In this document: one piece after another, positions 5,078 through 21,210 of the stretch
Numbering within the stretch: position 1 is the stretch's first letter
Layout of the letters: each line of letters begins with the position of its first letter
IMG/VR virus record: IMGVR_UViG_3300036859_000590
Coordinates: 1-21,592 of that record
DNA: 21,592 nucleotides
Reading direction: 5' to 3' (one strand)
Source of the DNA: a virus
Translations under genes and position numbers: made by a program
Notes under the pieces: model-generated
What the model was told of the DNA's origin: nothing
Seen by the model: the letters and a program-made list of their open reading frames with translations, nothing else
The model's database searches: none

Positions 5078-5102
5078 AATTCCAGCGCCCGGAAATATTG
5101 CC

Positions 5103-5602: not shown

Positions 5603-5670
5603 GGAAAGCCTTTGGCTTCATAAACATTGGTCATTGTAACTGGAGTCATTCCAGGTATCCCGGAGAAAAA

Positions 5671-6326: not shown

Positions 6327-6480
6327 GTCGCTCCCAAGCGTCAATCAATCGCCACTTGATCTGCCGTGCAGCCACGCTCCAATCACAAGCGCCATCGAGC
6401 AAATACCACGCTGCAATTAACAGCGACGCCGATACCCCTAATTGCATTGCCTTAACGGCGAGATATTGCATCATCTTCAT
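6307..6480 (-). CDS. Small single-pass membrane protein (57 aa)
   Basis: A 57-residue minus-strand protein with one hydrophobic segment, roughly residues 12-28 (MQLGVSASLLIAAWYLL), followed by a Trp-rich amphipathic and charged tail (WSVAARQIKWRLIDAWERL). ATG 6480 has GGAG at a 6-nt spacing, an excellent ribosome binding site located inside the upstream gene 6452-6631. Size and topology would suit a holin-like or inner-membrane regulatory peptide, but there is no sequence evidence for lysis function. It is the last gene of an overlapping leftward chain and converges on 6123-6326. Confidence 0.6.
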   Translation of the reverse strand: MKMMQYLAVKAMQLGVSASLLIAAWYLLDGACDWSVAARQIKWRLIDAWERLTQSQV

Positions 6481-6631
6481 GCTTTACTCCATGCAACGGA
6501 CACAACGGATTGGCTAACACCGTATCTTCAACCTCGCAGCAGCCATGCCCGCACCGGAATGTCTTGCAGCGACATACCACCGGCCCAAACAACACGGACA
6601 ATGCTTCTTCAATTTCTGATTTGCTTTTCAT
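6452..6631 (-). CDS. Small Cys-rich protein (59 aa)
   Basis: A 59-residue minus-strand protein. After a helical N-terminus (SKSEIEEALSVLFGPVV) come six Cys and two His in 30 residues (C20-R-C22, RCGHGCC at 26-32, CPLHG at 44-48). This is compatible with a small zinc-binding domain of a kind I do not recognise. ATG 6631 has GAGAAG at an 11-nt spacing, a weak site, but the start lies within the upstream mini-gene. The 3' end overlaps the membrane-protein gene by 29 nt and contains that gene's Shine-Dalgarno. Confidence 0.55.
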   Translation of the reverse strand: MKSKSEIEEALSVLFGPVVCRCKTFRCGHGCCEVEDTVLANPLCPLHGVKHEDDAISRR

Positions 6632-6713
6632 TCAAATAATCACTTCTCAAGTGTTGACTGTCTTTACCGTACTTGCGACAATTTATTTTGTCAATGAGGT
6701 TGGCTTTGCTCAT
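6609..6713 (-). CDS. Very small hypothetical protein (34 aa)
   Basis: A 34-residue hydrophilic, basic protein on the minus strand (begins MSKANLIDKINCRKYGKDSQ). Its ATG at 6713 overlaps the stop of the upstream frame as ATGA, and its 3' end overlaps the Cys-rich gene's start by 23 nt. These couplings, rather than composition, are the support. No domain is recognised. Confidence 0.4.
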   Translation of the reverse strand: MSKANLIDKINCRKYGKDSQHLRSDYLNEKQIRN

Positions 6714-6787
6714 ACGGTCGTGTGGCCGCGAGCGAGAGGGGCGGGATCGGTACAGGCTGGCTCTTTGTACTCTTCCATAAACCACAT
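6710..6787 (-). CDS. Possible mini-gene (25 aa) heading the leftward chain
   Basis: A 25-codon minus-strand frame from ATG 6787 (or the in-frame ATG at 6778), ending in an ATGA overlap with the next mini-gene. GAGG lies 2 nt before the first ATG and 11 nt before the second, so the second start would fit better and give 22 residues. There is nothing recognisable in the peptide. It may only be a leader that delivers ribosomes to the following genes. Confidence 0.3.
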   Translation of the reverse strand: MWFMEEYKEPACTDPAPLARGHTTV

Positions 6788-6964
6788 CGCCTCAGTCAAC
6801 TGCAAAAGATCCAAAGACGGCAGCCTTCAAAAGCTGTCGTTTTGCATTTCAGGGTGTCACGCACTTCAACACCATTGCACCGGGCCGTCAGACTCGGTGT
6901 TTTGGTATCATATGACTTGCTCGTTCAACTAAGCTATTGGTGGTGCAAGCAGCGTGCTTGGGGC

Positions 6965-6994
6965 CGTGCAAGCCTCTTGCACGCTTTCTCTTTT
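6965..6994 (+). terminator. Rho-independent terminator before 7012
   Basis: CGTGCAAG (6965-6972) pairs with CTTGCACG (6976-6983) around a 3-nt loop, followed by CTTTCTCTTTT. A second small stem (CAAGCA/TGCTTG) sits just upstream at about 6946-6960. A weaker hairpin with a T tract lies at 6816-6841. The 6788-7011 stretch otherwise shows no gene on either strand. The terminator would end rightward transcripts from the 5671-6326 genes. Confidence 0.65.
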
Positions 6995-7011
6995 GCACAT
7001 ACACTGTCTGC

Positions 7012-7281
7012 ATGATGACTGACAAACTGTATTGTTATAACCTACCACCAGCTGAAATGATCCTGGCTAGAGCCTTCTGGCGATCATTCAAATACAAACA
7101 CGATGCTAAACTCAATCTCTCTGGCTTCACCGAATCGCTTATCACAAAATTCATCGATCTAATGCTCGATGCTCATTGCCAGATCACAAGACACATTTCA
7201 ACAGCCAATCCAAAAACGCACGACTACTTGCTTATCTATCGCCCAGAAAACTACTGCCCAGAATACCCCTGGATAGATTGA
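7012..7281 (+). CDS. Hypothetical protein (89 aa)
   Basis: An 89-residue protein, helical in the middle (PPAEMILARAFWRSFKYK, then ITKFIDLMLDAHCQITRHI), with a C-terminal strand-like DYLLIYRPENYCPEYPWID. Not recognised. ATG 7012 (followed by a second ATG) has no Shine-Dalgarno and lies 18 bp after the terminator tail, so it could be translated from a leaderless or near-leaderless message. The frame is open upstream through the terminator, but that part is not credible protein. Confidence 0.6.
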   Translation: MMTDKLYCYNLPPAEMILARAFWRSFKYKHDAKLNLSGFTESLITKFIDLMLDAHCQITRHISTANPKTHDYLLIYRPENYCPEYPWID

Positions 7282-7453
7282 CATATTGGCTGGACCGCTT
7301 ACAATTCTCAGCATGAGCAGCAGACGACTCAGCCATATTGTCCATAAGCGCCTGAAACGTGTCGAACAAGTCAGACGTATTATAGTCAGCGCCTTCCAGG
7401 GGCGACCAATGACCCTGGAAGGCAGAAACACCATACAGCGGCTGCTGGCTCAT
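7232..7453 (-). CDS. Possible minus-strand gene (73 aa), competing with 7313-7558
   Basis: A 73-residue minus-strand frame beginning MSQQPLYGVSAFQGHWSP, with a balanced composition (TSDLFDTFQALMDNMAESSAA looks like a real helix). Against it, there is no Shine-Dalgarno, and it ends 50 nt inside the convergent 7012-7281 gene. The opposite frame has a very Arg/Leu/Ile-rich product, as antisense shadows often do. Either could be the real gene; composition favours this one, operon continuity the other. Confidence 0.4.
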   Translation of the reverse strand: MSQQPLYGVSAFQGHWSPLEGADYNTSDLFDTFQALMDNMAESSAAHAENCKRSSQYVNLSRGILGSSFLGDR

Positions 7454-7558
7454 CTGGATATCGCTTTGATACCATTGCAGCGGTCGGCTCGACCAAATGC
7501 AAAAACGAAAGCGTTCTATCGGAAATTGGTATTGGAGGGATGGGATCGAAATGAATAA
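7313..7558 (+). CDS. Possible basic protein (81 aa), competing with 7232-7453
   Basis: An 81-residue frame with about one in four residues Arg or Lys (SRRLSHIVHKRLKRVEQVRR). If real it could bind nucleic acid. It fills the space between 7281 and 7551 and its stop overlaps the next start by 8 nt, as is usual for the rightward genes here. There is no Shine-Dalgarno before ATG 7313, and its codons include many AGA, ATA and CGA, unlike the virion genes. It may be a shadow of the minus-strand frame. Confidence 0.35.
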   Translation: MSSRRLSHIVHKRLKRVEQVRRIIVSAFQGRPMTLEGRNTIQRLLAHLDIALIPLQRSARPNAKTKAFYRKLVLEGWDRNE

Positions 7559-7769
7559 ACGTGGCTTTGCATCACTATCCAAGGAGAAATTGCGTGCGAT
7601 TGCCTCTGCTGGTGGCATCGCTGCTCATGCAGCAGGTACGGCTCATAGATTCACATCAGAAGAGGCACAAGCCGCCGGCAAACTCGGTCGTAAGCTCGTT
7701 CGTGAGCGTAAATCCAATGCACAACAACAAACCGACAATACCACAATTCACCAATTACAGGACGCTTGA
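7551..7769 (+). CDS. KGG-motif (stress-induced/Con-10-like) small protein
   Basis: A 72-residue protein. Residues 4-48 match the KGG repeat family: RGFASLSKEKLRAIASAGG, then AAHAAGTAHRFTSEEAQAAG, that is, two repeats of the 'Ser/Glu-Glu-x-x-(x)-Ala-Gly-(x)-Gly' type. This is known from YciG-like and Con-10-like stress proteins of bacteria and fungi, which are small, hydrophilic and of poorly defined function. The last 20 residues are polar and low complexity. ATG 7551 has GGAGG about 13 nt upstream and a nearer GGGA. It overlaps the frame before it by 8 nt and the gene after it by 53 nt. A host-derived gene picked up by the phage is plausible. Confidence 0.75.
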   Translation: MNKRGFASLSKEKLRAIASAGGIAAHAAGTAHRFTSEEAQAAGKLGRKLVRERKSNAQQQTDNTTIHQLQDA

Positions 7770-8142
7770 AGCGGCGCTCCGCCAGCGAACCAGCGGCTAT
7801 CGACATGCGGGGTTCTTCATCACTGAGCGTGTTGATGGTATCGGCTGTACCTGTTTTTATTGCTCCAAAGAGCGTGCTATCTTGTTGAAATATGTTGAAG
7901 AAAAAGCCCAGCAAGAATACCGTCGCCAGGTTGATTATGACTGCCCGCAAGCTGCAGCCAGATTTCATAACGATGACTTTCACGCCGGGGCGCAAGCAGG
8001 TGCGTATTCTGCTACGACTAGCTGGGATATACCGCATCCCGATGAAATAATTAGTCAGCCAGAGAATGATCCCTGGCAGAAACCCGGTCAGATCTACAGA
8101 ATGCCGTTTGACTGGATTGCACCAGACAGTGATGAGGTATAG
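7717..8142 (+). CDS. Hypothetical protein with CxCxxC motif
   Basis: A 141-residue protein, not recognised. GIGCTCFYCSKER (C44, C46, C49) may bind a metal, but no second Cys pair is seen. A charged helix follows (ILLKYVEEKAQQEYRRQVDY), and the C-terminal 50 residues are acidic and rich in Pro, Asp and Trp. ATG 7717 with GAGCG upstream is chosen; it starts inside the KGG gene (53-nt overlap). The frame is open further upstream but shadows the KGG gene. It is followed after 2 nt by the next gene. Confidence 0.6.
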   Translation: MHNNKPTIPQFTNYRTLEAALRQRTSGYRHAGFFITERVDGIGCTCFYCSKERAILLKYVEEKAQQEYRRQVDYDCPQAAARFHNDDFHAGAQAGAYSATTSWDIPHPDEIISQPENDPWQKPGQIYRMPFDWIAPDSDEV

Positions 8143-8144
8143 CT

Positions 8145-8357
8145 ATGAGCGATACTGAAGCAAAAACAAAAGTCTTCGATGCTATTTGTCGTGGTATTGC
8201 CATGAGCGGTGTCTCTATTGGTGCGTCTGTTTTTCCAAATATTGCTGGCTGCGTCGAGGGCTTCTTGTTCGATCAAGAGTATCGTGGATTCGTTAGAGCT
8301 TATTGTGATGAAAGAGACGCAGCAGACAAAGCGGCTATCAGCAAGATCAAGAGCTGA
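8145..8357 (+). CDS. Small hypothetical protein (70 aa)
   Basis: A 70-residue protein. Residues 13-42 are moderately hydrophobic (AICRGIAMSGVSIGASVFPN), perhaps a membrane-associated helix, and the C-terminus is charged and helical (ERDAADKAAISKIKS). Not recognised. The start at 8145 has GAGG at 8 nt. It lies 2 nt after the previous stop and overlaps the next gene by 50 nt. Confidence 0.6.
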   Translation: MSDTEAKTKVFDAICRGIAMSGVSIGASVFPNIAGCVEGFLFDQEYRGFVRAYCDERDAADKAAISKIKS

Positions 8358-8514
8358 CCGATATATTGGTACACCTAGTAAATGTACCACCTGCGGATTG
8401 TTGGATGCCCGTAAGAGTGACTCCCGTAAACTATGTTTGCTATGCATCCTGAATACTGGAGCTAGTCGGGAGCTTAATGACGACTCAGAAGCGCTCGGCA
8501 TCGGCGATTCGTGA
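8308..8514 (+). CDS. Small zinc-finger-like protein (68 aa)
   Basis: A 68-residue protein with two CxxC pairs, C26-x2-C29 (KCTTCGLLDAR) and C43-x2-C46 (KLCLLC), 13 residues apart. This is the size of a single treble-clef or ribbon finger. The N-terminus is basic and the C-terminus acidic. ATG 8308 lies inside the preceding gene with only a weak AGAG upstream. The motif, not the start, carries the assignment. It is one of several CxxC mini-proteins in this window. Confidence 0.55.
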   Translation: MKETQQTKRLSARSRADRYIGTPSKCTTCGLLDARKSDSRKLCLLCILNTGASRELNDDSEALGIGDS

Positions 8515-8555
8515 TATAGTTGCATCTTGGTTCCGCAACACAGAAGGGAAAAACA

Positions 8556-8786
8556 ATGACACAAAAAACTGAAATCACTACGACATTGCACAATTGCACG
8601 GTGGCAGCGATCCAGAAGGTTGCATCAGAAGACAACACGCATTTTTCAATCAATATGTTCGACAAAGACAACTCCTTGATTGACAGCTTTAGCTATACAA
8701 GCGAAACTGCAGCTAATCAATACGCTGCTAGTTATGGTGCTACCAAGTTTGACGACAAGGGTTGGTGGCGGGCTCCAAAGTTATAG
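8556..8786 (+). CDS. Small hypothetical protein (76 aa)
   Basis: A 76-residue protein with strand-like segments (EITTTLHNCTVAAIQKV, then HFSINMFDKDNSLIDSFSYT) and a C-terminal SETAANQYAASYGATKFDDKG. It looks like a small alpha/beta domain. Not recognised. ATG 8556 follows GAAGGGA at about 6 nt, a good ribosome binding site. It is the last gene before the terminator at 8816-8857. Confidence 0.65.
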   Translation: MTQKTEITTTLHNCTVAAIQKVASEDNTHFSINMFDKDNSLIDSFSYTSETAANQYAASYGATKFDDKGWWRAPKL

Positions 8787-8815
8787 TACAATAGCGCCGG
8801 AAGCCGAAGCAAACC

Positions 8816-8857
8816 AAGAGCCACTGGTCTCTCTTTCCCCAGTGGCTCTTTTCTTTG
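8816..8857 (+). terminator. Strong rho-independent terminator
   Basis: AAGAGCCACTGG (8816-8827) pairs perfectly with CCAGTGGCTCTT (8839-8850), a 12-bp stem with an 11-nt loop, followed by TTCTTT. It separates the small-gene region from the virion module and directly abuts the next promoter. Confidence 0.9.
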
Positions 8858-8883
8858 ACAAATTGTCAAATATAGATTATATA
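8854..8883 (+). promoter_or_regulatory. Near-consensus promoter with overlapping palindromic operator
   Basis: TTGACA (8855-8860, perfect -35) is separated by exactly 17 bp from TATATA (8878-8883, five of six -10). The inverted repeat TTTGACA-AAT-TGTCAAA (8854-8870) overlaps the -35, the position of a repressor operator. It stands at the head of the virion module, so it is a likely late or regulated promoter. The predicted start is near 8890. Confidence 0.8.
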
Positions 8884-8902
8884 TCCAAGCAACAATAGAG
8901 GC

Positions 8903-9394
8903 TTGGTATGTGGCTTGAACATTGAGCGCTTCGCATGGATACCACCGGATGGCTTGTCCGACTGCCCGGAAAAGCGCTTTGTCCTTGCCTTCATTATTCA
9001 GACCATTCAAGACGCACAGAGTTATAGCAATGCCCCGGACAGCCATAAGATACGGCCTAGCTATATCGAGAGTATACAAATACATCGCCAATGGCTAGCA
9101 GAGCCACGTTTCAGCTGGTACTGCGAGCTTATGGGGTTGCCATCTCTCAAGGTAGCGGCTAACATAGTGGACGTGCTCGCTGGTAAACGCAAAGTCAATC
9201 CACGGGTGCTGCGCGTCGGGCGTACCTGGGAAGACTATGAGGCTTGCGGATTTGCCGCTGCACCTAGTAAGAGCGCCAAGTGCAACAAGCTCCGGTGGGC
9301 AAAAGACAAACAACATGACCAAGGCAATAACACTCCGAGAAATAGCGGCAAAATTTCGAAAAGAAACGGACGACTTTCTCCACGATCCGCCTAA
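8903..9394 (+). CDS. Hypothetical phage protein, first gene of the virion module
   Basis: About 163 residues. The stretch HRQWLAEPRFSWYCELMGLP (about 61-80) recalls a motif common in small uncharacterised phage proteins (WL-S-x-x-F-x-W-C-x-L-A-G). Function is unknown; a DNA-binding or terminase-associated role is possible. The last 45 residues are basic and low complexity and overlap the next gene by 80 nt. The start is uncertain: TTG 8903 and TTG 8915 are the in-frame options, while the ATG best placed for the AGAGG site (8897-8901) is at 8908 in another frame and gives only five codons. This may be a leader ORF or a sequence error. Confidence 0.5.
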   Translation: MVCGLNIERFAWIPPDGLSDCPEKRFVLAFIIQTIQDAQSYSNAPDSHKIRPSYIESIQIHRQWLAEPRFSWYCELMGLPSLKVAANIVDVLAGKRKVNPRVLRVGRTWEDYEACGFAAAPSKSAKCNKLRWAKDKQHDQGNNTPRNSGKISKRNGRLSPRSA

Positions 9395-9851
9395 TATCAC
9401 CGACTACAAAAGCTTTCGACTTTACTACAACAATCTGGCAAAATGTGTGATACGGGCAGAAGTCGATCCTCAATTCTCTTTTGCTACCAAGACCGCATCT
9501 ACGCTGGCTTACATCGGCACTGTGATTTTATTGAGTCTTGATAGAGAACTAAAAGAGAAGGGACACGCTGGGCCCCTGGAGGATAAATTCAACCAGATGG
9601 TGCAGCAAGGCGGCATCTCACTCACTCTGGAACAGGCGGCATTGGTGCTGAAGCAACAGGAGTCCAATTCTGCCATCCGGCTGCTTACCAAGTTTGCCGG
9701 CGAAAATAGCGTACCGCCGCCGTCAGTGCAAGTGACGGAAATCACAGATGCCGAAATGATCACACCGGTCTCTCGCCGGATATCTGCATTGTCCAAACGA
9801 GCCAAAGCCAAGGAGCATAAAACCGATAATGACCAGCATTACGCCTTTTGA
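9315..9851 (+). CDS. Hypothetical protein upstream of structural genes
   Basis: A 178-residue, largely helical protein. EIAAKFRKETDDFLHDPP is at the N-terminus, an Asn/Tyr/Phe region comes next, then SLTLEQAALVLKQQESNSAI in the middle and a basic C-terminus (SALSKRAKAKEHK). Position before the virion genes and an all-helical, basic-tailed character would suit a small terminase subunit. However, TerL is 8 kb away and no HTH is clear, so I leave it unassigned. ATG 9315 has no Shine-Dalgarno and lies inside the preceding gene. The 3' end overlaps the GNAT-like gene by 23 nt. Confidence 0.6.
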   Translation: MTKAITLREIAAKFRKETDDFLHDPPNITDYKSFRLYYNNLAKCVIRAEVDPQFSFATKTASTLAYIGTVILLSLDRELKEKGHAGPLEDKFNQMVQQGGISLTLEQAALVLKQQESNSAIRLLTKFAGENSVPPPSVQVTEITDAEMITPVSRRISALSKRAKAKEHKTDNDQHYAF

Positions 9852-10737
9852 GCCGCACTGCAAGCGGTATAGCGGCTTGCGATTGAGAAGCGCTTTTAGC
9901 CGGCATAATATCGAGATTGAAAACCTGGCGACATTGATTATCAGTCAGGCTCCTGGATTAGCTAAACTCTTACAAGACAATCCGTTCTTGGTCGATGATA
10001 CTTATCGCAATCTCACAGAGTCGTTATTCTGGTGCAAGGGCATCAGTGAAGGCGAAGTGGTTCTATGCCATCGCGGGGCGGCCGGCGCCTTGTGTGGCGC
10101 TGCTTTCATTCGCGATGTTCACTTTGGCGGCAGCGCTGAATTAAACTTTTTTGCGTTACAAGACATGGCCTATTCTTGTTTTGAAGAGGTCTTGGCTTAC
10201 ATGTTTCGCCCGCTCATGGGCGGCTTGGGCTGTCTGAATGTGCGTATGAGAATTCACCCACAAAATGAGCAGGCACGGGATTTAGCCACACAATTCAGCT
10301 TCGCTTCCAAGACCGTCTTAATAGCCGATGCTTGCTATCACGGAGACCCTTCTAATATGCTCTTGGTTGAATTACTCAACCCCACTGTCTTCTCGGCAGG
10401 CGAGGAAATAAGCAATGCCAGCGTCAATAGATCTGTACCCGTCAGCCCAGTTCAACCCGAACAGCTACACGATGGACCCGGGGGCGCCGGGGCTGATCAA
10501 GCCTACGGCGATGACAGCGGGGAGCCTGACTGGGATGCCGACGAGCTATTACGACATGAACTCCTGGGGCATACCGGGATACCAGCCACCGCCAGGGGGA
10601 CTGATGTCGATGGCTCAATGGGGCAGCCAGTTGGGCGGGATGGTGCCTCAGTCCCAGACAGCCCCGGAGATGACAGCCCAGGCCCTGGCGGCGAACCAGA
10701 TGTTACCGGAGAACCTGCGACTAGCGGCATCCGCTAA
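9829..10737 (+). CDS. GNAT-like acetyltransferase-fold phage protein
   Basis: A 302-residue frame. Residues 1-195 look like the GNAT-fold proteins that many podoviruses carry next to virion genes. GAAGALCGAAFIRDV (the cofactor-side strands), a central FFALQDMAYSCFEEVLAYMF helix, and IHPQNEQARDLATQFSFASK (the 'N-x-x-A...GF' part) are visible in the expected order. The roles of these phage proteins are largely unknown. Residues 196-302 are Gly/Pro/Asp-rich low complexity and coincide with a 323-nt out-of-frame overlap with the next gene. In the neighbouring frame a TAA at 10409-10411 would end the protein right after the GNAT domain, so a one-base indel, true or artefactual, may have extended it. 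AGGAG lies 13 nt before ATG 9829. Confidence 0.65.
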   Translation: MTSITPFEPHCKRYSGLRLRSAFSRHNIEIENLATLIISQAPGLAKLLQDNPFLVDDTYRNLTESLFWCKGISEGEVVLCHRGAAGALCGAAFIRDVHFGGSAELNFFALQDMAYSCFEEVLAYMFRPLMGGLGCLNVRMRIHPQNEQARDLATQFSFASKTVLIADACYHGDPSNMLLVELLNPTVFSAGEEISNASVNRSVPVSPVQPEQLHDGPGGAGADQAYGDDSGEPDWDADELLRHELLGHTGIPATARGTDVDGSMGQPVGRDGASVPDSPGDDSPGPGGEPDVTGEPATSGIR

Positions 10738-11266
10738 TCTCATCAGCCCGGATACCTTGCAACAATTTCGGCAAAACTGGCGGCAGCAATACGCCAATCC
10801 AGCCGAGGGACAATTGCAAAGCCAGCTCTATAGCTCTGGCCGTGCTGATTCAACATTTGGCGGCGCCCAGCTCGGGCAGTTGCAAGGCATGAATAACCTC
10901 AATGAGCTGCAGGCGGCACTGGGTTTTCAAAGCAATGCGCTTGAGAATTGGCTCAAGACCAGACAATCGTTCTTTGGTAACGAGGGACAGATGGCACAGA
11001 ATGCCAATCAAATGAACGTCAATCGAGGGCTTGGTGTTGCTCAAATGTCCGGCAACGCCTGGCAGTCTCAGGCTAATGCTCAGAACGAATACAACCTGAA
11101 TGCATATCGTTCGATGTTGCAGGCGCAGCAACAGCGTGAACAAAGCAACTTCCAAAATATGCAGTCCGTGAATGAAAACCGCTTGCGCAGCCAGCAAATA
11201 CAGATGCCGACTCGGACTAATTATGTCGGGATGGGAACTTATCCTGAACAGCACGCCTACTACTAG
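10415..11266 (+). CDS. Putative internal virion/ejection protein, Gln/Asn-rich
   Basis: A 283-residue protein with a Pro/Gly/Met-rich N-terminal 100 residues. A Gln/Asn/Ala-rich helical remainder follows (QLQGMNNLNELQAALGFQSN; AYRSMLQAQQQREQSNFQNM). This composition and its place in a run of similar genes are typical of podoviral internal core or DNA-ejection proteins, although no signature motif proves it. ATG 10415 has GAGG at a 9-nt spacing and follows an in-frame TAA by 3 nt, so the start is secure. Its first 323 nt overlap the C-terminal extension of the GNAT-like frame. It is followed after 10 nt by the next gene. Confidence 0.65.
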   Translation: MPASIDLYPSAQFNPNSYTMDPGAPGLIKPTAMTAGSLTGMPTSYYDMNSWGIPGYQPPPGGLMSMAQWGSQLGGMVPQSQTAPEMTAQALAANQMLPENLRLAASANLISPDTLQQFRQNWRQQYANPAEGQLQSQLYSSGRADSTFGGAQLGQLQGMNNLNELQAALGFQSNALENWLKTRQSFFGNEGQMAQNANQMNVNRGLGVAQMSGNAWQSQANAQNEYNLNAYRSMLQAQQQREQSNFQNMQSVNENRLRSQQIQMPTRTNYVGMGTYPEQHAYY

Positions 11267-11276: not shown

Positions 11277-11909
11277 ATGTTTGACACATACGGCGATCTT
11301 GCAAATGCGTTAGCGCAAATTTCAACAATTCGCGCCCAGGATCTCGCGCAAAAACGCCAACAACAGGGGCCGGGGTTGCCCTGGACAGAAGCGTATCACA
11401 ACCAGATGGCGAAGATGTGGCAACATTGGGGTGGGCTAAATGGTGGCATGGGCGGCATTGGTGTGGCACCACAGATCCTGGACACGGAAGCTAATAAGAG
11501 ATGGATGCTATCGGCATTGCAAGACCCCCGCGGCTTTGGTCATGGCGCACCTGGCCCGCAATCGCTAAGAACACCAACACAACGGCCGCAAAGAGAAATA
11601 TATTCACCTGAGTATGTGCGGGATCTGAATCAACACGGTTATAACAGCAACACCGGCCTGCCGAGGAATTGGAGTAGCGTTACAGGTGCGCCAATGTATG
11701 TGCCGTCAACGCCACAGATGAGACCTGGTGATACCCGGGGAACGGCTTCAGCACCGCCTGTTAGCCCAATGATTCAAGAAGCTATTGACAGGCTGGCACA
11801 GTCACCGGAACATGCGGCAACTATTGTTAGCTACTTTAATCAAGCTGGCATGAATGACTCCGGTTATGGGTACAACAATGGTGGCATGAGCCCTTATATG
11901 GAGGAGTGA
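11277..11909 (+). CDS. Putative virion protein, Gly/Pro/Asn-rich
   Basis: A 210-residue protein with a helical N-terminus (LANALAQISTIRAQDLAQKR). A long Gly/Pro/Met/Asn-rich and probably extended middle follows, then a short helical C-terminus (MIQEAIDRLAQSPEHAATIV). No family is recognised; genome position and composition suggest a structural or ejection role. ATG 11277 has GCAGG at a 6-nt spacing. The stop is 3 nt before the next gene. Confidence 0.6.
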   Translation: MFDTYGDLANALAQISTIRAQDLAQKRQQQGPGLPWTEAYHNQMAKMWQHWGGLNGGMGGIGVAPQILDTEANKRWMLSALQDPRGFGHGAPGPQSLRTPTQRPQREIYSPEYVRDLNQHGYNSNTGLPRNWSSVTGAPMYVPSTPQMRPGDTRGTASAPPVSPMIQEAIDRLAQSPEHAATIVSYFNQAGMNDSGYGYNNGGMSPYMEE

Positions 11910-11912: not shown

Positions 11913-13211
11913 ATGGACTGGGGAGATTTAACACGCTTTGCTCGCACTCCTGTTGGCAATTTGTATGACAACTATGATGTGCAAGGGGCAACTATAGCGA
12001 CAAACATGTTTCAGCCGCTATTGTCGAGGATTGACATGTCTAACGCCTTTAATTCGGGAACGACGATGACCCCGAATCCATTTGTGGCAGCAGCACAGTC
12101 AGCACAGCAAAATAGTCGTCGAGAATTTCATAATCTAGCAGATTCGGCCTCGGTGCCACAATCAAAAACCGCTTATAATGCCGGCGGATCGCGCTCTTTG
12201 ATGCAAGCGATTATGCATGGCACCGCTGGCGATATTGCATCAAAAGACTTCCAGACGTTAATCAGCAGTCTGGAGGAGTCCGCATCTAAAAGCCGCAGGG
12301 CGCTTGACGCCAAGCACCATCAAGACTTACGTGCGGCCGATGTCTTTACTAGGCTCTTGGGTGATGCCAGTCCAGAAGATGCTGACGCATTGGCGAATGC
12401 ATCACTGATAGAAAAGATGTTGAATGACAAAGCCGCAGCCTGGGATAAAGAAAACCCGCTGGCAGCAGATCCACGAGCCATACATCAAGCGGAGTTAAAC
12501 AGCAAGGGTATCCGTGAATACGGCTCGCCGCCAGATGGCAATTACATGAAGCTCGATAGTTGGCAGGCAATTGACCATGATAGAAAAGCCCAGCGCGAAG
12601 CTGCGCTGCAGCAAACGCGGGCCAATCTTGCAGCGGGCTTATTGAGTCATCTTGGTGCTGTGCAATCAGCTAAAGAACAAGAGGCGCTGCAAATGGTGAG
12701 TGCTGTTGCGGCAGCGCAGCAACAGAGACAGAAAGCTAATTTGTTGCTACAAGCGATGCCAGAGCAATTAAAGGCAGAACTAGCCAAGTCGCAGGCAGAA
12801 ACCGGGCATCTTAACGCTGTCAGTCAGTACAACCGCGCCCAGGCGCAAGCAGTCAATCCTAGTTTGCCTAAGCATCAGATGACAACAGCGTTGCTGAAAT
12901 ATCTTGCACAAAACCCAGAAGCGGCGGCCGAGCTGGATTTATCCGGCGTGTTTCATGCTGCTGGTGCCCGAGAGCTGCCATCAGACGACAGGTCGTGGGT
13001 AGATAAAGTGATGGGCAAGCCCCGTCCACGCAATGCAATACAGCAACCGCCAGAGGCTGGTGAGGCGTTAGCAGATGAAGATATGCCCACACCGCCTAAG
13101 CCCAACACGCCTATCAACGAAGATGCCTTCAAAGTTTTATGGCAGAAGCACGGCGGCGATAGAAATAAAACTAGAGCAGCGGCCCAGCAACTCGGCTGGA
13201 AAGTGAAGTGA
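11913..13211 (+). CDS. Putative internal virion/ejection protein
   Basis: A 432-residue, Ala/Gln-rich, largely helical protein. Helical runs include AQSAQQNSRREFHNLADSAS (about 62-81), and AALQQTRANLAAGLLSHLGA and QQQRQKANLLLQAMPEQLKA in the middle, with coiled-coil character. The C-terminal 28 residues (DAFKVLWQKHGGDRNKTRAA and on to GW) resemble the Fis-type 'GGNRTRAAxxLG' helix-turn-helix, unusual for a virion protein and possibly DNA-contacting. ATG 11913 follows GGAGGAG. It lies between two other putative ejection proteins and ends 4 nt before the next gene. Confidence 0.6.
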   Translation: MDWGDLTRFARTPVGNLYDNYDVQGATIATNMFQPLLSRIDMSNAFNSGTTMTPNPFVAAAQSAQQNSRREFHNLADSASVPQSKTAYNAGGSRSLMQAIMHGTAGDIASKDFQTLISSLEESASKSRRALDAKHHQDLRAADVFTRLLGDASPEDADALANASLIEKMLNDKAAAWDKENPLAADPRAIHQAELNSKGIREYGSPPDGNYMKLDSWQAIDHDRKAQREAALQQTRANLAAGLLSHLGAVQSAKEQEALQMVSAVAAAQQQRQKANLLLQAMPEQLKAELAKSQAETGHLNAVSQYNRAQAQAVNPSLPKHQMTTALLKYLAQNPEAAAELDLSGVFHAAGARELPSDDRSWVDKVMGKPRPRNAIQQPPEAGEALADEDMPTPPKPNTPINEDAFKVLWQKHGGDRNKTRAAAQQLGWKVK

Positions 13212-13215: not shown

Positions 13216-16200
13216 GTGGCAGATCTGATTGATAAATTCGCTGATCAGATGCAAGCGGATTCAGCTGAATCTGACAATCGCGATCTGATTGATAAATTCG
13301 CTGATCAGATGCCGACTGCTGGTGCTGCCCAAGCTGCTGCCACCACACCGGCACAAACAAACGCCAAGCCTAATGGTTTTTGGCAGTGGTTACAAAACCT
13401 TGAGAATCGTACCGGCGAGATGGGCGCCAACATGATCACCGGCACGATTAAAGCCGGACAAGAGGTTGGTGCGGGATTATCCCGTGGCGACGTGATGGGT
13501 TTGGGCAATGCTGCCGTTCAGGGATTTGTGAAAGGTGGCGCCGGGTTAATCGATTTACTGGGCAATGCCGGATATGCGGCGCTTCAGGCTTCCGAGCCGC
13601 TGGCGTATGGACCTAATGGCATCAAGCCGATACAAGGCTCATTTGCATTAGCCCCGGCTTGGGAAAAATTTGTCACATCATCGCCGATCGGCAACGGTAT
13701 GTCGCAGTATCCTAATCTTGCAGGTGCTGGTGAATTTGCCGGGCAAGCCATGGCGCCAGCCATGAGATTGGCCCGCGCAGGCGCTGGTATTCCAGCGAAA
13801 TTGGCAGAAGCGGCACTGACAGGAGAGGCTTATGGAACGCTTGGAGATATCGCACAGAAACAAGTCGCTGGAGAGAATCAAAATATTTTTGCATCGCTCA
13901 ACGCTGGATTGCCTACTGGCATTATTGGTCTTGGCATGGGTGGTGCGCTCATGGGTGCCGGTGGCATTGGCCGCAAGGTTGCGCCCCGCGAAGTGCAACC
14001 GACTCCACCGGAATTGGTACAGAGCCAAATAGATGAATTATTTGCGCCACAGCAACCTAAGGCTAATGTTGAAGATGTTACGCGGCAGTTGTATGACGAA
14101 TTTCCGCCTCCAGATCCATCCAGTAAAGAGGCACGATTGCAAGCTGAGCTGGGACAGCTGAAGTCATTCTTTGAGGGTAAGACTTACGATGACTACAAGG
14201 CGTCGGAATTACCGCCGCTAGTGCAAGCTACCCTGGAGTCCATTAAGGATACTCAGATACCAGAGATCGATCAATATAAGCGCAAAATGAAAGCAGAAGG
14301 CGTAGATCTGGTGATTAATAAGACTCGTGCTCAAGCCGAGGATCTACGTGCTAAGAAGCGTGCTCAAGTCGAGTTGTCTAAACAGGAAGCGACGCCCTGG
14401 GAAGAGGTGGTTAAGCCAGCAGCGCCACCAGAGCCTGCAGTGACCGAGAAGCCACAAGAACGCCACTGGTCACATTACATCAAAGAACGAACAAACTTAG
14501 CGTCCCCACGACCAGAGGAGCTGTCGCCAGAGCCTTTAATTCCCGGTAATCGCATGTCGTGGAAACCACAAAGCCCAGAACACAAGGCGATTGTTCAAGG
14601 CGATATTGATACCATGCGTAAAGACGCACGTAATTATTACGTTAAGCAGCGCGTGAGTGAACGAGGGATCGAGCACCCGGATATTGAGGAGCGCATCACC
14701 AAAGAGCTAGCGCAATCCAAGAAAGACAATCCGACTGCTGAATATGCAGCTAGCGAATTGTCAGAGAAATATCGCCGGCATTACTTAAACGAGTTTGATA
14801 CTGCGTTCAATAAACAACTTGATGAGAATCCGGCGGGCATCAGGGAATGGCTGGCTAAGCACGATATATACAAGCGGCAGCATTTAGCCAAGCAATACGC
14901 CAAGAATGCCAAGACCAGCGATGAGATGATTGCTAAAATAGCGAAAAGTCCAGATGCACCGCTTGCCGAGCGTCTAGCCAAAACCGCAGGCTTTGACTCC
15001 TGGCATGATTTTGTTAAAGAAGAGTGGGGGCACGCACCAATCGGCGGGCTATTGTCAGAGGATAAATTCTTCGATCCGATTGCAAAGCTTGTCGGCGAGC
15101 ATGTGGCACCAGAGAAAATCAAAGCTGCCATGAAGCATTTTGAAGGCGAAGTCAGCCCGCAGTCTCTGGCTCGCATGTTTGGCATTCAGACCAATACCGA
15201 TATTGTCAGGCAATACGATAAGCCGTTGCACGAGAAGCGGATCAAAACGCTAGCGGATTTGGATCAAGTTAGCGTGGATGTAGAAGATTCGCGCACACAA
15301 GCAGGCAAAGACGCCTGGCGTGAAGCTATGAAGATGGCACCGGAGGAAATCGTTACAAGCGATAAACTCACTGCGCTATCAGACAGGCAGCGTGAATACC
15401 TGGTTGACTTCAAGCGCATTGCCGATGATTTCGTGGACAATACATTGAAGCCGCGCATTAAAGAGCTGGAGGCTGTCGGGCACAAAGCTGGCTGGTTTGG
15501 CAATGATCGTCTGTTGCGTATTCTCAAGGACGATTTACAGCAATTACGCCCACCTGCTACAGAAGACGGCTTGGCGATGAGATTGTTGCGTGAAGGGCGT
15601 GGTGGTTATTATCGCAGCATATTTTTAGGCAACCAAGAGATTGCCGGGTTGCACGCCATCGAAGCGGCGGCGGCAGGCTTCGCACACGATCCTGTTGCTG
15701 CTGCCGAGGCGCTTAAGTTATTTACTCGCGGACAAATCAACAAATTAGCCGGCAAGTACGATGTGGCGCATGACTTTGTCACAGCCTGGAAAACCAGAGG
15801 CATGGAGACGCATTTACAAGACAGTGAAGTCGGTAGCGTGCCGGTTATTGGCGGTGCCGTCAAAGGTATTGCCAAGTTCAACGACTCTGTAGTTAAGCAG
15901 ATTGAGAAGTTACCTGCTGGTGCAACGATAGTTGATGCCCTGCGAGCACAACTACCTGAGAAAGCCAAGATTCAGATTATTCGTACCGCCATGGCGGTAC
16001 GCCAGGCAAAAGAGATGAATTACCCCGGTGGTGCCGAGGGCTTGATGAGCGATCTGCTTATGCAAGCTCGACGTAAAGACATCCCGGCATCAAGGCAAGT
16101 CATGTTGGACAAGGTTAGAATCAATATGTTCAGCGATATGAACAGGTTGATTATGTATTCCCCGCTGGGCTTTTCTGAGCGGACGTTATTTCAACGCCAT

Positions 16201-16947
16201 GGCGATCTCGTCCAGATGTTTTTCCCTTTCACTCGCTCGGTTTTTCAACAAGCCCGACTCGTTCACAGCTATGGTGAGGATTTGATCAATGCAACTAATA
16301 AGCTGGCGAAGTCCCCGACTGATGCAGCTGGCTGGGGAGAGGTCGCGCAGGTCATACAACGTTCCGGTACCTTATTGGGCATTCTTGGGATATTTGCCGG
16401 TGCCAAGGCGTTGCCAAAAGAGGCGGATGAATGGCTGCGAGCCAATGGGTATAAACAAGAACGCAAGATGCTGCACCAGGCCCTTGAAGGGCTCCATTCG
16501 TTAAACCCGCTTGGGCAGCGAGTGGAGCACGTCCAGCCGCGCCTGAGTGCTTATGATATTGCGCACAATCAACCGATGTTTGAGAGCTGGATCAAGCAAT
16601 TCAATACTGCGTTTGATGAGAAGAAGAAGCCAGAACAGCGGCAAAAAGCGCTACTGGCAATCGCTTCCTTGGCACAGATTGATAATGTCTTTGGCCTATT
16701 CGGTACTCAAAAGATACACCGGTTTTTTAGAAAGATGGGCGAGGGCTTCAAAGGCTACTCGACTCGGTATGCTTTTTCAGAGCCGGAAGGCATTGGTGGC
16801 GAACAGCGCATGTTAGGCAAGCGCACATTTAACACCAATGCATTGGCTGAGTTCTTTGATTGGATGATACCAGGCACACCGAATAAGGTGTCTGACTTTG
16901 TCGAACAAAAGCAAGAACAGGACTGGCGTAAGCGGCATCGCAAGTAG
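13216..16947 (+). CDS. Giant virion protein, putative DNA-ejection protein (1243 aa)
   Basis: The largest gene of the window. Its size and position after two smaller helical virion proteins match the giant internal (gp16-like) proteins of podoviruses, which are ejected with the DNA. No lysozyme or transglycosylase domain is evident. Residues 3-12 and 23-32 repeat DLIDKFADQM. Residues about 70-260 are Gly/Ala-rich with amphipathic and hydrophobic stretches (GLGNAAVQGFVKGGAGLIDL; GLPTGIIGLGMGGALMGAGG), suited to membrane insertion. The centre is charged and helical. The C-terminus holds a conserved-looking SPLGFSERTLFQRHGDLVQM (about 982-1001) and another hydrophobic helix (LLGILGIFAGAKAL). The start is GTG 13216, the only one that includes the first repeat. 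It could alternatively be called a polyvalent protein. Confidence 0.7.
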   Translation: MADLIDKFADQMQADSAESDNRDLIDKFADQMPTAGAAQAAATTPAQTNAKPNGFWQWLQNLENRTGEMGANMITGTIKAGQEVGAGLSRGDVMGLGNAAVQGFVKGGAGLIDLLGNAGYAALQASEPLAYGPNGIKPIQGSFALAPAWEKFVTSSPIGNGMSQYPNLAGAGEFAGQAMAPAMRLARAGAGIPAKLAEAALTGEAYGTLGDIAQKQVAGENQNIFASLNAGLPTGIIGLGMGGALMGAGGIGRKVAPREVQPTPPELVQSQIDELFAPQQPKANVEDVTRQLYDEFPPPDPSSKEARLQAELGQLKSFFEGKTYDDYKASELPPLVQATLESIKDTQIPEIDQYKRKMKAEGVDLVINKTRAQAEDLRAKKRAQVELSKQEATPWEEVVKPAAPPEPAVTEKPQERHWSHYIKERTNLASPRPEELSPEPLIPGNRMSWKPQSPEHKAIVQGDIDTMRKDARNYYVKQRVSERGIEHPDIEERITKELAQSKKDNPTAEYAASELSEKYRRHYLNEFDTAFNKQLDENPAGIREWLAKHDIYKRQHLAKQYAKNAKTSDEMIAKIAKSPDAPLAERLAKTAGFDSWHDFVKEEWGHAPIGGLLSEDKFFDPIAKLVGEHVAPEKIKAAMKHFEGEVSPQSLARMFGIQTNTDIVRQYDKPLHEKRIKTLADLDQVSVDVEDSRTQAGKDAWREAMKMAPEEIVTSDKLTALSDRQREYLVDFKRIADDFVDNTLKPRIKELEAVGHKAGWFGNDRLLRILKDDLQQLRPPATEDGLAMRLLREGRGGYYRSIFLGNQEIAGLHAIEAAAAGFAHDPVAAAEALKLFTRGQINKLAGKYDVAHDFVTAWKTRGMETHLQDSEVGSVPVIGGAVKGIAKFNDSVVKQIEKLPAGATIVDALRAQLPEKAKIQIIRTAMAVRQAKEMNYPGGAEGLMSDLLMQARRKDIPASRQVMLDKVRINMFSDMNRLIMYSPLGFSERTLFQRHGDLVQMFFPFTRSVFQQARLVHSYGEDLINATNKLAKSPTDAAGWGEVAQVIQRSGTLLGILGIFAGAKALPKEADEWLRANGYKQERKMLHQALEGLHSLNPLGQRVEHVQPRLSAYDIAHNQPMFESWIKQFNTAFDEKKKPEQRQKALLAIASLAQIDNVFGLFGTQKIHRFFRKMGEGFKGYSTRYAFSEPEGIGGEQRMLGKRTFNTNALAEFFDWMIPGTPNKVSDFVEQKQEQDWRKRHRK
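13222..13312 (+). repeat. 31-bp in-frame direct repeat at the start of the giant gene
   Basis: Bases 13222-13252 recur identically at 13282-13312, exactly 60 bp (20 codons) apart, both encoding DLIDKFADQM. Each copy contains ATCTGAT and ATCAGAT as an inverted pair. Complete nucleotide identity, including wobble positions, points to a recent duplication. Confidence 0.95.
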
Positions 16948-17156: not shown

Positions 17157-17563
17157 ATGGCAAATCAATAGACATTTCTGGCTGGGGAGCTAGTCGCCGC
17201 TCTGTCAGATATAGACTGACTAATGATTGTTATGAGTTCGCGCTGTTGGTTGGCACGGCGATTGGCCCTGATGGTTCGGCGGAGGTAGTGATATTTGGTA
17301 AGAATAGAGTATCGCCATGGCAGATGTGGTCTAAGTATGGCGATAAAATCGGTCAATGGGAATTTGTGAATCCCGATCCTGATGTCCAGCAATTGCTGGA
17401 CATTCTTACAGGCAAGGTAAAGCCAGGGGCACCGCTGCCTGATTCGCAACCGGAGTTAGAGAAGGGCTTTGGTGCGGAGTTGCCGTTTGGCGATGTCGAT
17501 CCTGTGGATGACCAATCCGCTCGACCTGCAAGAAAAACTGCCGTTAAGAATTCCCGATTATGA
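17153..17563 (+). CDS. Hypothetical protein upstream of TerL
   Basis: A 136-residue protein. The N-terminal 90 residues look like a beta-rich domain (SVRYRLTNDCYEFALLVGTA; EVVIFGKNRVSPWQMWSKYG) ending with a helix (DVQQLLDILTG). The C-terminus is acidic and then basic low complexity. Position just before TerL would suit a small terminase, but no HTH is seen, so I do not call it one. AGAGG precedes the start at 7 nt. It overlaps the peptide gene by ATGA and TerL by 56 nt. Confidence 0.6.
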   Translation: MNGKSIDISGWGASRRSVRYRLTNDCYEFALLVGTAIGPDGSAEVVIFGKNRVSPWQMWSKYGDKIGQWEFVNPDPDVQQLLDILTGKVKPGAPLPDSQPELEKGFGAELPFGDVDPVDDQSARPARKTAVKNSRL

Positions 17564-19187
17564 CGGCTGGTTAGAGAAGCGGATAAAGCGCCTGCCTTCT
17601 TTCCTCTTACCAGGGGAGCAAGGCGAGCGTAATCGTCGTGCCGAGTACATGCTATGCAAGAATGACATCTTGCATTGGATTAAGTATTGGTGCTGGCTCT
17701 ACAACCCATGGAAGCCGCCTGAAAAGCAAGAGTTCCCATTTATTCCTTATGAGTTCCAAGAGGAACTCATACTCTATCTGCGCGATGCTATTGTCAGATG
17801 CAACGATCCAGATACGTTTGATCGCGAGAATGATGTTATCGAGAAGTGCCGCGAAATGGCGGGCTCTTGGTCGGTTTATATCACCGCTCTACACGACTTT
17901 CTTTTCTATAACGGCTCTTACCTCATCTTGTCGTGGAAGCGCGAGGAGGTTGATGAGCCGGGCAATATGGATACGCCATTTGAGAAGCTGCGCTTTCTCT
18001 TGCGTCGTCTACCCGAGTGGCAACGGCCAGCCGGCTGGAACTGGCGCGATCATAGCAATGTTGGTTTGCTAAAAAACCCGTGCGGTGGTTCCATTGGATC
18101 GGAATCCATGACCGCAGCGGCCGGTGCCGGCGGCCGTGTGCGGGCTGTAATCTTCGATGAATTCGGCAAGATTCAAGATGGCACGGATTACCCCGCCTGG
18201 CGCTCCACGTCAGGTACCAGCCGTTTGCGCATTGCCATTTCTACGCCAGAAGGTAGAAATAACAAATTTGGCCGTCTGGCAACCGGTGATGAGCAAGAAG
18301 AGCGTGTATTGATTTCACTCAACTGGTGGAAAGACCCCGTGAAGTCACAAGGGCTAACTTTCATCAACGGCAAGCCAACATCGAGATGGTATGAGGAACA
18401 GAAGGCAAAACTCGATCCTATCACGCTTGCCAGCCAGGTCGATATTAGCTACGACAATTCAGTTGGTGGCAAAATATTTGGCGATCTTTATAGCGAATGG
18501 CATCAAGTTAGAGACGGCAGTCTGTCACCCGTTATCGGTCAGCCAATTCTCATTTGCTTCGATCCTGGCGTTCACTTCTTCGTATCGTTCACGCAGTTCG
18601 ATCATCATGATCGTTATTTGGTATTGGACGAGTTGTATTTTGCCAATGCAGATATTGATTCGGTAGCAGAAGCAATTCAGCGGAAGCAGCGCCAGCGCTT
18701 CAGAGATTACAAGTTTGAGTACATTGGCGATCCTGCTGGCGGCTCTGTCAATACTTCTATGCATCGTCTTAAGTCGGAGTATTTGTATCTGTTGGAGACT
18801 TACGGCTGGCAAATCGAGTACAACTTCCAGGGTGCCAACAGGGCTGAATGGGTAGATAACCGTAATGCCGCTTTGAAGCGCTATCTAACACGCCATTGTC
18901 CGACGTTAAGCACCGCTGTTGCTCCATCACCTATGGTGCTGGTTGATGTCCGGCAATGTAAGCACATTCACGATGCATTGTCTGGTGGCTATCGCTATAA
19001 GAGCGACTATTCCGGTCAGCTAAGCCATCGCATTGATGCTAGGCATCCGCATGAAGACGCAGCGGATTGCACCACTTATCCCTTGATGTACAAGGGCATG
19101 TACGCGCATCGCAAAGAAAAGAAAGAGCGCCGGGAACGAACAGGTTTTCTTAATTGGCAAGATGTAGGAGATAGGACGTATGGCTAA
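17508..19187 (+). CDS. terL: Terminase large subunit
   Basis: A 559-residue packaging motor ATPase/nuclease. The ATPase domain shows a Walker A-like EKCREMAGSW (112-121), comparable to the 'KSRxMGxSW' of many phage terminases, and a Walker B AVIFDEFG (213-220, with D217 and E218). The coupling motif ISTPEGRNN follows at 244-252. The C-terminal nuclease domain has CFDPG (350-354), YIGDPAGGS (405-413) and HPHEDAADC (513-521), supplying the acidic metal ligands. The length is normal. ATG 17508 is used because homologous-looking sequence begins there; in-frame starts at 17469 and 17493 would add 13 or 5 residues, and none has a strong ribosome binding site. It overlaps the previous gene by 56 nt and portal by 8 nt. 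Confidence 0.85.
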   Translation: MTNPLDLQEKLPLRIPDYDGWLEKRIKRLPSFLLPGEQGERNRRAEYMLCKNDILHWIKYWCWLYNPWKPPEKQEFPFIPYEFQEELILYLRDAIVRCNDPDTFDRENDVIEKCREMAGSWSVYITALHDFLFYNGSYLILSWKREEVDEPGNMDTPFEKLRFLLRRLPEWQRPAGWNWRDHSNVGLLKNPCGGSIGSESMTAAAGAGGRVRAVIFDEFGKIQDGTDYPAWRSTSGTSRLRIAISTPEGRNNKFGRLATGDEQEERVLISLNWWKDPVKSQGLTFINGKPTSRWYEEQKAKLDPITLASQVDISYDNSVGGKIFGDLYSEWHQVRDGSLSPVIGQPILICFDPGVHFFVSFTQFDHHDRYLVLDELYFANADIDSVAEAIQRKQRQRFRDYKFEYIGDPAGGSVNTSMHRLKSEYLYLLETYGWQIEYNFQGANRAEWVDNRNAALKRYLTRHCPTLSTAVAPSPMVLVDVRQCKHIHDALSGGYRYKSDYSGQLSHRIDARHPHEDAADCTTYPLMYKGMYAHRKEKKERRERTGFLNWQDVGDRTYG

Positions 19188-21210
19188 CTTGATTTGGGAA
19201 ATGCCGGACATGCCGCCGCTTGACAGTGAGTACATGGATTCACTGGCGCGTTTCTTGATGAATGACATGTTGCCATATTGGAAAAACTCTCGACGATCAC
19301 TAGAGCGCCAGTGGCTTGAGAATGATCGCGGTTATCTGTGCGTCAGGCGTCTGCCCATGATGGAAGGTATGGATTATGTTGACGCCAGTCCATACGGCGA
19401 AGATGACATCTTTAATGGCGTCAACAACCTGTCACTGCGGCTATCACTAGCCTCTATGCCTAAAGACGAATCTTGGCTGACCGTGGTTGGCCGCAGTGGC
19501 GAACCACCACAACTTGTTAATGCCGTACAGGCACAACAGCTATGGATGCACCGCAAAGCTGGCACGCGCAAAGTCTTTAGCAAGCACTATAAGCAGCTGA
19601 TTGTCCGGGGCACAAGCTATCTGTACATGCGCTGGCATAAAGAAATGAAGTACAGGCGACTAGGTACACTGCAAGGTCGCAAACGGCTGCGCAAGCACTT
19701 CAAAGCGCTTGGACAAGACCAAAGCGTCATCAAACAAATCAATAGTGTGCGTGTGCCTACAGTCGAATTTGAGGGCCCCGTGGTGCGCGTGCTCGATTCG
19801 TATGACGTTTGGATGGACCCGGAAGCGGATCTGTTATGCGACCGCCGCCCAGGCATGATCATTGTCACGGCGTATCAACCCAGCGACCTGGAAGCGGCCA
19901 CCGATGACTTTGGCGAGAAGATGTTTGAGAACTACAAGGACATCTCGCCGATGAAAGCCAGTGATTTCTACTGGGGTACAGCGGAAGGCACCAGGCGCCT
20001 GCAGTCGCTAAATAATATGGGTGTGCGGCCGCAACAGCACACTACTGCTAGCGCAGACATCGTGCCGGTGTATACGTTCTACAAGCATTATTTCAAGTGG
20101 AATGACATGGAATTTCATGACACATACTTTCACGTTGCTCAAAGTACCGATGGTAAGCATCGCGTTATCCGCGTGGAAGAGAACCCGTCAGATGAAGGTC
20201 ACAGGTTGATTCTACAAGATACATTCATCAAGTTTTTTACCAACGTGGCTTATGGATTAAGCGGTGTGGAAAAGCTGCTGTCAGCATGGCATCAAAAGAA
20301 TTTCCTGGCAGCTATCATGTTGAATGCAGCAGCGGCGACTGCCTTTCCGGCGCAATTGATTGCGTCTGGTGTGTTTAAAGACGACCAGCCGTTCATGACA
20401 CCTGGCGCATTGAATGAAGTCGCCATGTCGGCTTTACAAGCAGGCGATGTAGTTAAGCCCATGCCCGTGCCTGAGCGCGGTCTGCAATTGTCGTTTGAGA
20501 ATATGGAATATTACAAGCGCAAGATCGGCGGCGGCTTCGAAGTCACTGGTGCCTATGGTAATGGCAGTCAGCAGGGTAATCGAGAGACGGCAACCTCGGT
20601 CAATTTCCGCGCTACCAATCAAGGCTTGGCAGTCGATGAACTCACCGAGGAATTTGGCGACACGCTGCAATCAATGTGTCAGTGGTCTTATGACATGAAT
20701 CAGCAGACGGCGGTGCCGGAAGAAGCCGGGCGCGGCCGTGACGGTGTGGTGCGCTTTGGCCGTATCGTTGGCAATAGCGTACAGCCAGGCGAGCTGAAAT
20801 TCGATGAATGGTTGCAACCCCGTTCTATTGAGGTGCTGGGGTTGCATGGTGTGGCCAATAAGCAGCAAGCCATCATGAACAAGAATGAGGCGCTGAAAGC
20901 AATTGGGCAGACGTCCCAATACCTGCCAAATGCCCCGGCGTTAACCGCCAAGGTGGTGCGCTCTCTATTTACTGATCTCAATATAGAAACTGATGATCAA
21001 GACTGGTTATCGCCGGCGGAAATTGCTATGCAAGATCCGGCTGCGCAAGCACTGGCACTGGAAAGCGGACTGCATAACCAGGAGCTAGTCAACATGGTCC
21101 TGTCCAAAGTGAATGGAGTATCCAATGGCCCGCAAAACAACCCAGGAGGCCCGGCTGCAGGGCAGCCGCCAAAACCCTCTAACGGTCGCCCAGTTCCGCG
21201 CAGCGCTTAG
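19180..21210 (+). CDS. Portal (head-tail connector) protein
   Basis: 676 residues, somewhat longer than T7-type connectors (about 535). The N-terminal part FNGVNNLSLRLSLASMPKDE and then FSKHYKQLIVRGTSYLYMRW have the usual pattern of podoviral head-tail connector proteins. Later SYDVWMDPEADL, NVAYGLSGVEKLLS and a stretch with GNRETATSVNFRATN (the 'R-x-x-A-T-x-x' stem/wing region) fit the same family. The portal forms the dodecameric DNA channel, with TerL docking on it. The C-terminal 32 residues are Pro/Gly/Asn-rich and overlap the next gene by 86 nt. AGGAG lies 9 nt before the ATG. TerL-portal order is canonical. Confidence 0.8.
   Translation: MANLIWEMPDMPPLDSEYMDSLARFLMNDMLPYWKNSRRSLERQWLENDRGYLCVRRLPMMEGMDYVDASPYGEDDIFNGVNNLSLRLSLASMPKDESWLTVVGRSGEPPQLVNAVQAQQLWMHRKAGTRKVFSKHYKQLIVRGTSYLYMRWHKEMKYRRLGTLQGRKRLRKHFKALGQDQSVIKQINSVRVPTVEFEGPVVRVLDSYDVWMDPEADLLCDRRPGMIIVTAYQPSDLEAATDDFGEKMFENYKDISPMKASDFYWGTAEGTRRLQSLNNMGVRPQQHTTASADIVPVYTFYKHYFKWNDMEFHDTYFHVAQSTDGKHRVIRVEENPSDEGHRLILQDTFIKFFTNVAYGLSGVEKLLSAWHQKNFLAAIMLNAAAATAFPAQLIASGVFKDDQPFMTPGALNEVAMSALQAGDVVKPMPVPERGLQLSFENMEYYKRKIGGGFEVTGAYGNGSQQGNRETATSVNFRATNQGLAVDELTEEFGDTLQSMCQWSYDMNQQTAVPEEAGRGRDGVVRFGRIVGNSVQPGELKFDEWLQPRSIEVLGLHGVANKQQAIMNKNEALKAIGQTSQYLPNAPALTAKVVRSLFTDLNIETDDQDWLSPAEIAMQDPAAQALALESGLHNQELVNMVLSKVNGVSNGPQNNPGGPAAGQPPKPSNGRPVPRSA

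Follow-up and report, generated by a model that had tools for sequence, protein, structure and literature searches.

Does a long out-of-frame overlap between two neighbouring phage genes reflect two proteins encoded by the same DNA, or is one of the two frames open by accident, or through the gain or loss of a single base? This question is raised by the window analyzed here, the entire 21,592-base virus record IMGVR_UViG_3300036859_000590. In this window, the ORF of a GNAT-like gene (9829..10737, 302 aa, ATG start, stop TAA at 10735-10737) and that of the downstream gene, hereafter named virA (10415..11266, 283 aa, ATG start), share positions 10415..10737. Both lie on the + strand, as do the other features of this gene cluster given below, and virA is read in frame +1 relative to the GNAT-like frame. 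The 323-nt out-of-frame overlap had been claimed in an earlier sequence-only reading, and we confirmed both ORFs and their coordinates. As argued below, it is probably an old, maintained dual-coding overlap, in which the upstream product has a GNAT-like core followed by an acidic tail, and virA starts inside the upstream gene.

The gene order around the overlap looks like the late module of an uncultivated podovirus-like, i.e. short-tailed-phage-like, phage, because a terminase, a portal or connector, and an intervening 1243-aa ORF are found downstream. Upstream, a gene at 9315..9851 shares 23 nt with the start of the GNAT-like gene; in the relative described below, the two share 13 nt. After virA come virB (11277..11909) and virC (11913..13211), for which a virion role is suggested by their place, as it is for virA by its place in the gene order. 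The 1243-aa protein (13216..16947) is, judging by place and size, a probable internal or ejection protein; its positional counterpart in the relative is an ORF of 1561 aa, and tblastn at E 0.01 gave no link between the two. The large terminase subunit gene, terL (17535..19187, the part used in the analysis, with a provisional start codon), matches PHROG 5989 (E 3.7e-9), and the portal or head-tail connector gene (19180..21210) matches PHROG 332 (E 2.2e-7). No tRNA or Rfam match was found across the window. Between 9000 and 11400, there were 2 promoter-like sites for 1.9 expected and 5 terminator-like sites for 2.6 expected (sd 1.7), and neither count was taken as evidence.

A relative carrying the same gene pair was reached through a portal alignment. 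This 47.6-kb record, IMGVR_UViG_3300048839_000532, has a portal and a TerL respectively 42% and 35% identical to those of the window, and its gene order matches (GNAT, virA, TerL, portal and the following genes). Its GNAT homologue is 28% identical over residues 46-186 (E 9.3e-11), and its virA homologue 39% identical over residues 37-250 (E 2.0e-24). The two genes adjoin there as well: their ORFs, at 870-1688 (272 aa) and 1450-2250 (266 aa) of locus L018, overlap by 239 nt, likewise in +1. The two genomes thus differ in the length of the overlap (239 versus 323 nt), and their aligned proteins are 26-43% identical. The virA start falls at residue 196 of the GNAT protein in the window and at residue 194 in the relative. 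In both, the motif GAGGAA (10402..10407 in the window) is found before the virA ATG, just past the GNAT core, where it serves as the putative Shine-Dalgarno sequence of virA and is also read as Glu-Glu by the GNAT-like gene. The stop codons of that gene occupy matching positions in the virA alignment: each consists of the final base of one virA codon plus the opening two bases of an Asn codon (N108 in the window, N80 in the relative). The register is thus shared by the only relative found to span the region (1 of 1), for two sequences in all. Two other sequences of this lineage end short of the overlap region: L020, with a portal 44% identical, and a 9.2-kb contig from a Phycisphaeraceae MAG, JADLAP010000300.1, which is 99.2% identical to the relative. 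The presence of this contig in the MAG may hint at the host of the lineage, or be a binning artefact.

The upstream protein can be divided into a core (residues 1-195, 9829..10413) and a tail (residues 196-302, 10414..10734). Its structure model, built from two sequences, has a mean pLDDT of only 37; with this low confidence, the order of strands and helices in the core (alpha1-alpha2-beta-beta-beta-alpha-beta-alpha-beta-beta) is that of the GNAT fold. In Foldseek searches, the best 50 of 942 matches with E <= 10 were all spermidine or other acetyltransferases (best E 2e-5), with a query TM of about 0.3 when normalised by the full length, tail included. The window protein itself had no Pfam or PHROG match, and the homologue from the relative gave sub-threshold matches to Pfam Acetyltransf_3 (18.1 bits, for a cut-off of 25.4) and to PHROG 4470, acyl-CoA N-acyltransferase (E 0.16). 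The label “GNAT-like” given by the sequence-only reading is thus supported by the fold search and by the sub-threshold matches of the homologue. In GNATs, the acetyl-CoA P-loop motif, [RQ]xxGx[GA], is located before the central helix. The window protein lacks it at the equivalent site, after the third strand and ahead of the next helix; its sole occurrence, QAPGLA at residue 40, is in the wrong place, and the homologue has none. The likelier reading is a non-catalytic, structural or virion-associated GNAT-fold protein instead of an active acetyltransferase; the core would then be catalytically dead. T7 gp13, which we take to belong to the acetyltransferase clan, may offer a parallel. As for the 107-residue tail, its composition bears out the earlier description as Gly/Pro/Asp-rich (G 17.8%, D 13.1%, P 12.2%), with a pI of 4.05. 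The model places a single short helix in it, at low confidence, and the tail is probably acidic and disordered or flexible. Between the window and the relative, the tails had no residue-level likeness, either in the aligned columns (BLOSUM score P 0.21, identities P 0.53) or in free alignment (P 0.20 to 0.53), and their role might require acidity and flexibility alone.

On the virA side, the conservation is uneven along the overlap. The protein is conserved in the relative from about residue 81 onward, so that the overlap ends within the beginning of the conserved region. Residues 81-107, which correspond to the last 27 codons of the overlap, were conserved with a z of 7.3 when compared to sequences keeping only the GNAT tail. 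For residues 1-80, conservation was not above that of shuffled sequence (P 0.32), and reached P 0.025 against sequences keeping only the GNAT tail. In composition, this N-terminal part looks like virA coding sequence in the relative (z 3.5), but not in the window (z -0.6). The virA arm overprinted on the tail is most likely flexible, Gly/Pro/Met-rich and variable.

We then asked whether the second frame could be open by chance. Briefly, 20,000 synonymous versions of the virA segment within the overlap were drawn, with its amino acids fixed and the codon usage of the virion genes of the contig. In the window, the GNAT frame stayed open in 0.6% of these synonymous re-draws (P 0.0061, or 0.012 with the codon usage of virA itself): no GNAT-frame stop occurs before the end, for a simulated mean of 4.0. 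The virA third positions, which are the first positions of the GNAT frame, contain 52% G, versus 33% in the simulations, and 7% T, versus 24%. The net acidity of the tail (acidic minus basic residues) is 15, for a simulated mean of -1.2, and a value as high was reached in less than 1 in 10,000 draws. As controls, stretches of the same length were taken from eight gene segments of the contig (n=284; these overlap each other and are not independent). The frame equivalent to that of the GNAT gene was open in 0 of the 284, and the overlap lay outside their whole range for third-position G (z 5.3, control maximum 2.77), third-position T (z -4.8, control minimum -2.93) and acidity (z 4.9, control maximum 2.27). 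In itself, the open GNAT frame of the relative is within what chance would give (P 0.28; 0.14 with the usage of virA itself; 21 of 379 control stretches open), and third-position G and T (z 1.7 and -0.5) are within the range of the 379 controls. Its acidity, with a z of 2.2 for a control mean of -0.72 and maximum of 2.13, departs in the same direction as in the window, more weakly. Constraint in the second frame beyond that imposed by the first is therefore found in the window by synonymous draws, and in the relative acidity alone stands out. In the simulations, a first stop at precisely the observed position had a probability of 0.0016 for the window and 0.040 for the relative. In the converse test, where the GNAT tail was fixed, an open virA frame was not surprising in either genome (P 0.12 in the window, 0.30 in the relative).

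Codon usage was less telling. In the window, the GNAT frame had a codon log-likelihood (-0.103) no better than the means of out-of-frame controls (-0.104 and -0.132), and in the relative it was about one standard deviation above them (-0.095 versus -0.21 and -0.20). That of virA within the overlap was below the lowest in-frame control in both genomes. Dual coding would be expected to lower both scores, yet this does not in itself count as evidence for the GNAT frame. For the relative age of the frames, synonymous usage gave no order: within the overlap, each of the two deviates from the norm in either genome (z -2.5 to -3.7), but so does the third frame, to an equal or greater degree (-5.8 and -3.9), and one ordinary gene reaches -2.0. 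Overall, dual coding is best supported for the last 80 bases or so of the overlap, and its earlier part as dual-coding rests on open frames, starts and composition.

Different origins can be proposed for the open GNAT frame. The sequence-only reading had put forward a one-base indel near 10409, real or due to a sequencing error, that would have removed a GNAT stop and created a new C-terminal extension, on the grounds that a TAA at 10409..10411 sits one frame away. This TAA does exist in an adjacent frame, which is however that of virA itself, and it has no counterpart in the relative, where virA is preceded in its own frame by a TGA, the nearest upstream stop, at 48 nt from the start. Between 10390 and 10480, the window has no stop in the GNAT frame. 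A relative stopping at about 10411 was looked for, and the opposite was found in the one covering the region: the same register, a long overlap, no GNAT-frame stop at the end of the core, and a stop at the aligned codon. Since an indel in the window would not yield the same register in both genomes, we regard a recent event of this kind as highly improbable. The tail might also be a passive read-on, devoid of role, the stops being absent by chance from the coding of the virA N-terminus. The absence of residue conservation in the tail would fit such an origin, as would the 28% of draws in which the frame of the relative is open and the window GNAT-frame codon score, which resembles that of out-of-frame controls. 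Against it stand the P of 0.006 for the open frame in the window, the lean of both genomes towards acidic residues and the alignment of the two stops, and we hold it for improbable, though less so than the indel.

A more serious challenge concerns the virA start, which the sequence-only reading had called secure. The good GAGGAA and the counterpart in the relative make 10415 the likely start, short of certain, given that Shine-Dalgarno-like matches as strong or stronger precede the ATGs at 10535, 10604 and 10610. If virA started at 10604 or 10610 (ATGs within 10604..10612, behind an AGGGGG run), positions 10415-10603 would code for the GNAT tail alone, and the true overlap would be 134 or 128 nt, i.e. 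about 130 nt. The matches at these two sites score -8.8 and -9.4, compared to -6.8 at 10415, and virA residues 1-80 are unconserved. The G and T skew at third positions is also strongest in codons 2-80 (G z of 5.2, versus 1.9 over the final 28 codons), which is what coding by the GNAT frame alone would produce there. The relative points the other way: it has no start or candidate near the aligned place, of 5 candidate starts, the single one with a good Shine-Dalgarno is 1450, which corresponds to 10415, and its N-terminal part is virA-like in composition. Moreover, in both genomes virA can be read without interruption from the first ATG. We consider a later start rather unlikely, while giving it more credit than the other alternatives.

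Under the dual-coding reading, which we prefer, the first gene would be translated through to 10737, i.e. 107 codons past the core, giving an acidic, flexible tail. Ribosomes would also initiate at 10415, from the Shine-Dalgarno sequence of virA inside the first gene, and read virA in +1, so that both proteins would be made from these starts. The variable N-terminal arm of virA and the first part of its conserved region would be overprinted on the tail, two segments lax enough in sequence to be encoded together. Ribosomes translating the upstream gene would pass over the virA start, which may couple the two outputs. One could go further and imagine that the acidic tail is a functional partner of virA, for instance an anionic chaperone or a DNA-mimic arm that docks the GNAT-fold protein during core assembly; we offer this as a conjecture that is more doubtful than not by a wide measure. 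Were it true, the shared DNA would tie the expression of the two products together, and their evolution as well.

The arrangement recalls the internal virion protein cluster of T7, genes 13-14-15-16, where a smaller protein is likewise followed by a helical one and later by a protein of 1200-1500 aa. Unlike the GNAT/virA pair, T7 genes 13 (27307-27723) and 14 (27728-28318) do not overlap, and the window and relative proteins had no match to the T7 gp13 or gp14 families in Pfam and PHROGs. virA is predicted to be mainly helical, at low confidence, its structure model being too poor to interpret, and its only Pfam or PHROG hit was DOCK_N (E 0.059, 12.8 bits for a cut-off of 27). Transmembrane helices are predicted for T7 gp14 (PMC8954989). 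No 19-residue stretch of virA has a hydropathy above 1.6, and the same test finds none in T7 gp14 itself.

Long overlaps are already known as a kind, and are common. In one survey, overlaps in DNA viruses have a median length of 15.6 nt (IQR 8.5-61), with a value of 14 nt (IQR 8-26) for those in +1 (PMC8903798); by these figures, the 323 and 239 nt found here are far above the usual lengths. A second study gives 61% as the share of dsDNA virus reference genomes with annotated overlaps of more than 50 nt (PMC7017920). Low-complexity, probably disordered overprinted segments have been proposed for overlapping genes of eukaryotic viruses (PMC6195259). As in other long same-strand +1 overlaps of DNA viruses, the present pair consists of adjacent genes in the same direction, in different frames, with a low-complexity segment. 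Among the titles listed in literature searches, none dealt with this overlapping pair, which is not proof of absence. The pair thus adds a new, unusually long and apparently old example, with an overlap of 239-323 nt between two probable structural genes whose register is kept at 42% portal identity. It provides a usable test case of one low-complexity arm overprinted on another. Annotators tend to trim such upstream ORFs or to call them frameshift errors, and the GNAT/virA case cautions against both.

Further relatives of the pair were sought in several ways. The GNAT or virA protein as a single query gave none in IMG/VR, and the virA alignment recovered there only the already known contig. 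By tblastn against 50,697 phage records, the proteins of the window and of the relative revealed no GNAT or virA relatives. The 1243-aa protein had no relatives among phages and IMG/VR, nor did the portal, as a single-protein query, in IMG/VR and bacterial genomes. The GNAT and virA alignments each matched 0 of 14 distant records, and the virA alignment matched 0 of 392 genomes of the phylum of MAG G003 and 0 of 2 for L020 and the JADLAP010000300.1 contig (L021); none of these sets included a record known to match, so that little is proven by these counts. The portal alignment, run against sets of 392 and 397 genomes, gave 1 match in each, namely MAG G003, which is the centre of both sets. A portal-like gene was also seen in a 274-kb record named Microcystis phage MaAM05 (MW495066.1), where it is surrounded by aspS, proS, ftsH, lepA and other host-like genes; this record may be a bacterial chromosome with a prophage instead of a phage genome.

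Some other features of the window deserve mention. A second sizeable +1 overlap is found at 21125-21210, where a gene starting at 21125, with GGAG before its start, shares 86 nt with the end of the portal gene; at the same place and in the same register, an ORF of the relative overlaps the portal by 50 nt (L007, 11961-12010). From 2600 to 9200, about 6.6 kb contain short ORFs only, on both strands and many with TTG or GTG starts. This region separates the late module from a leftward block that includes a RusA nuclease gene (421-1098, Pfam E 6.4e-13). Its 6 long frames do not exceed what a Markov null can produce (mean 2.2, maximum 7 in 300 draws), and a reassignment of TGA in it was rejected, several good genes ending in TGA. 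Finally, the start of the contig (2-318) consists of about 53 copies of the 6-base unit TCCGTA (90% matches), an array that is open in several frames and would encode Pro-Tyr-Pro-Ser or Tyr-Gly-Asp-Gly repeats.
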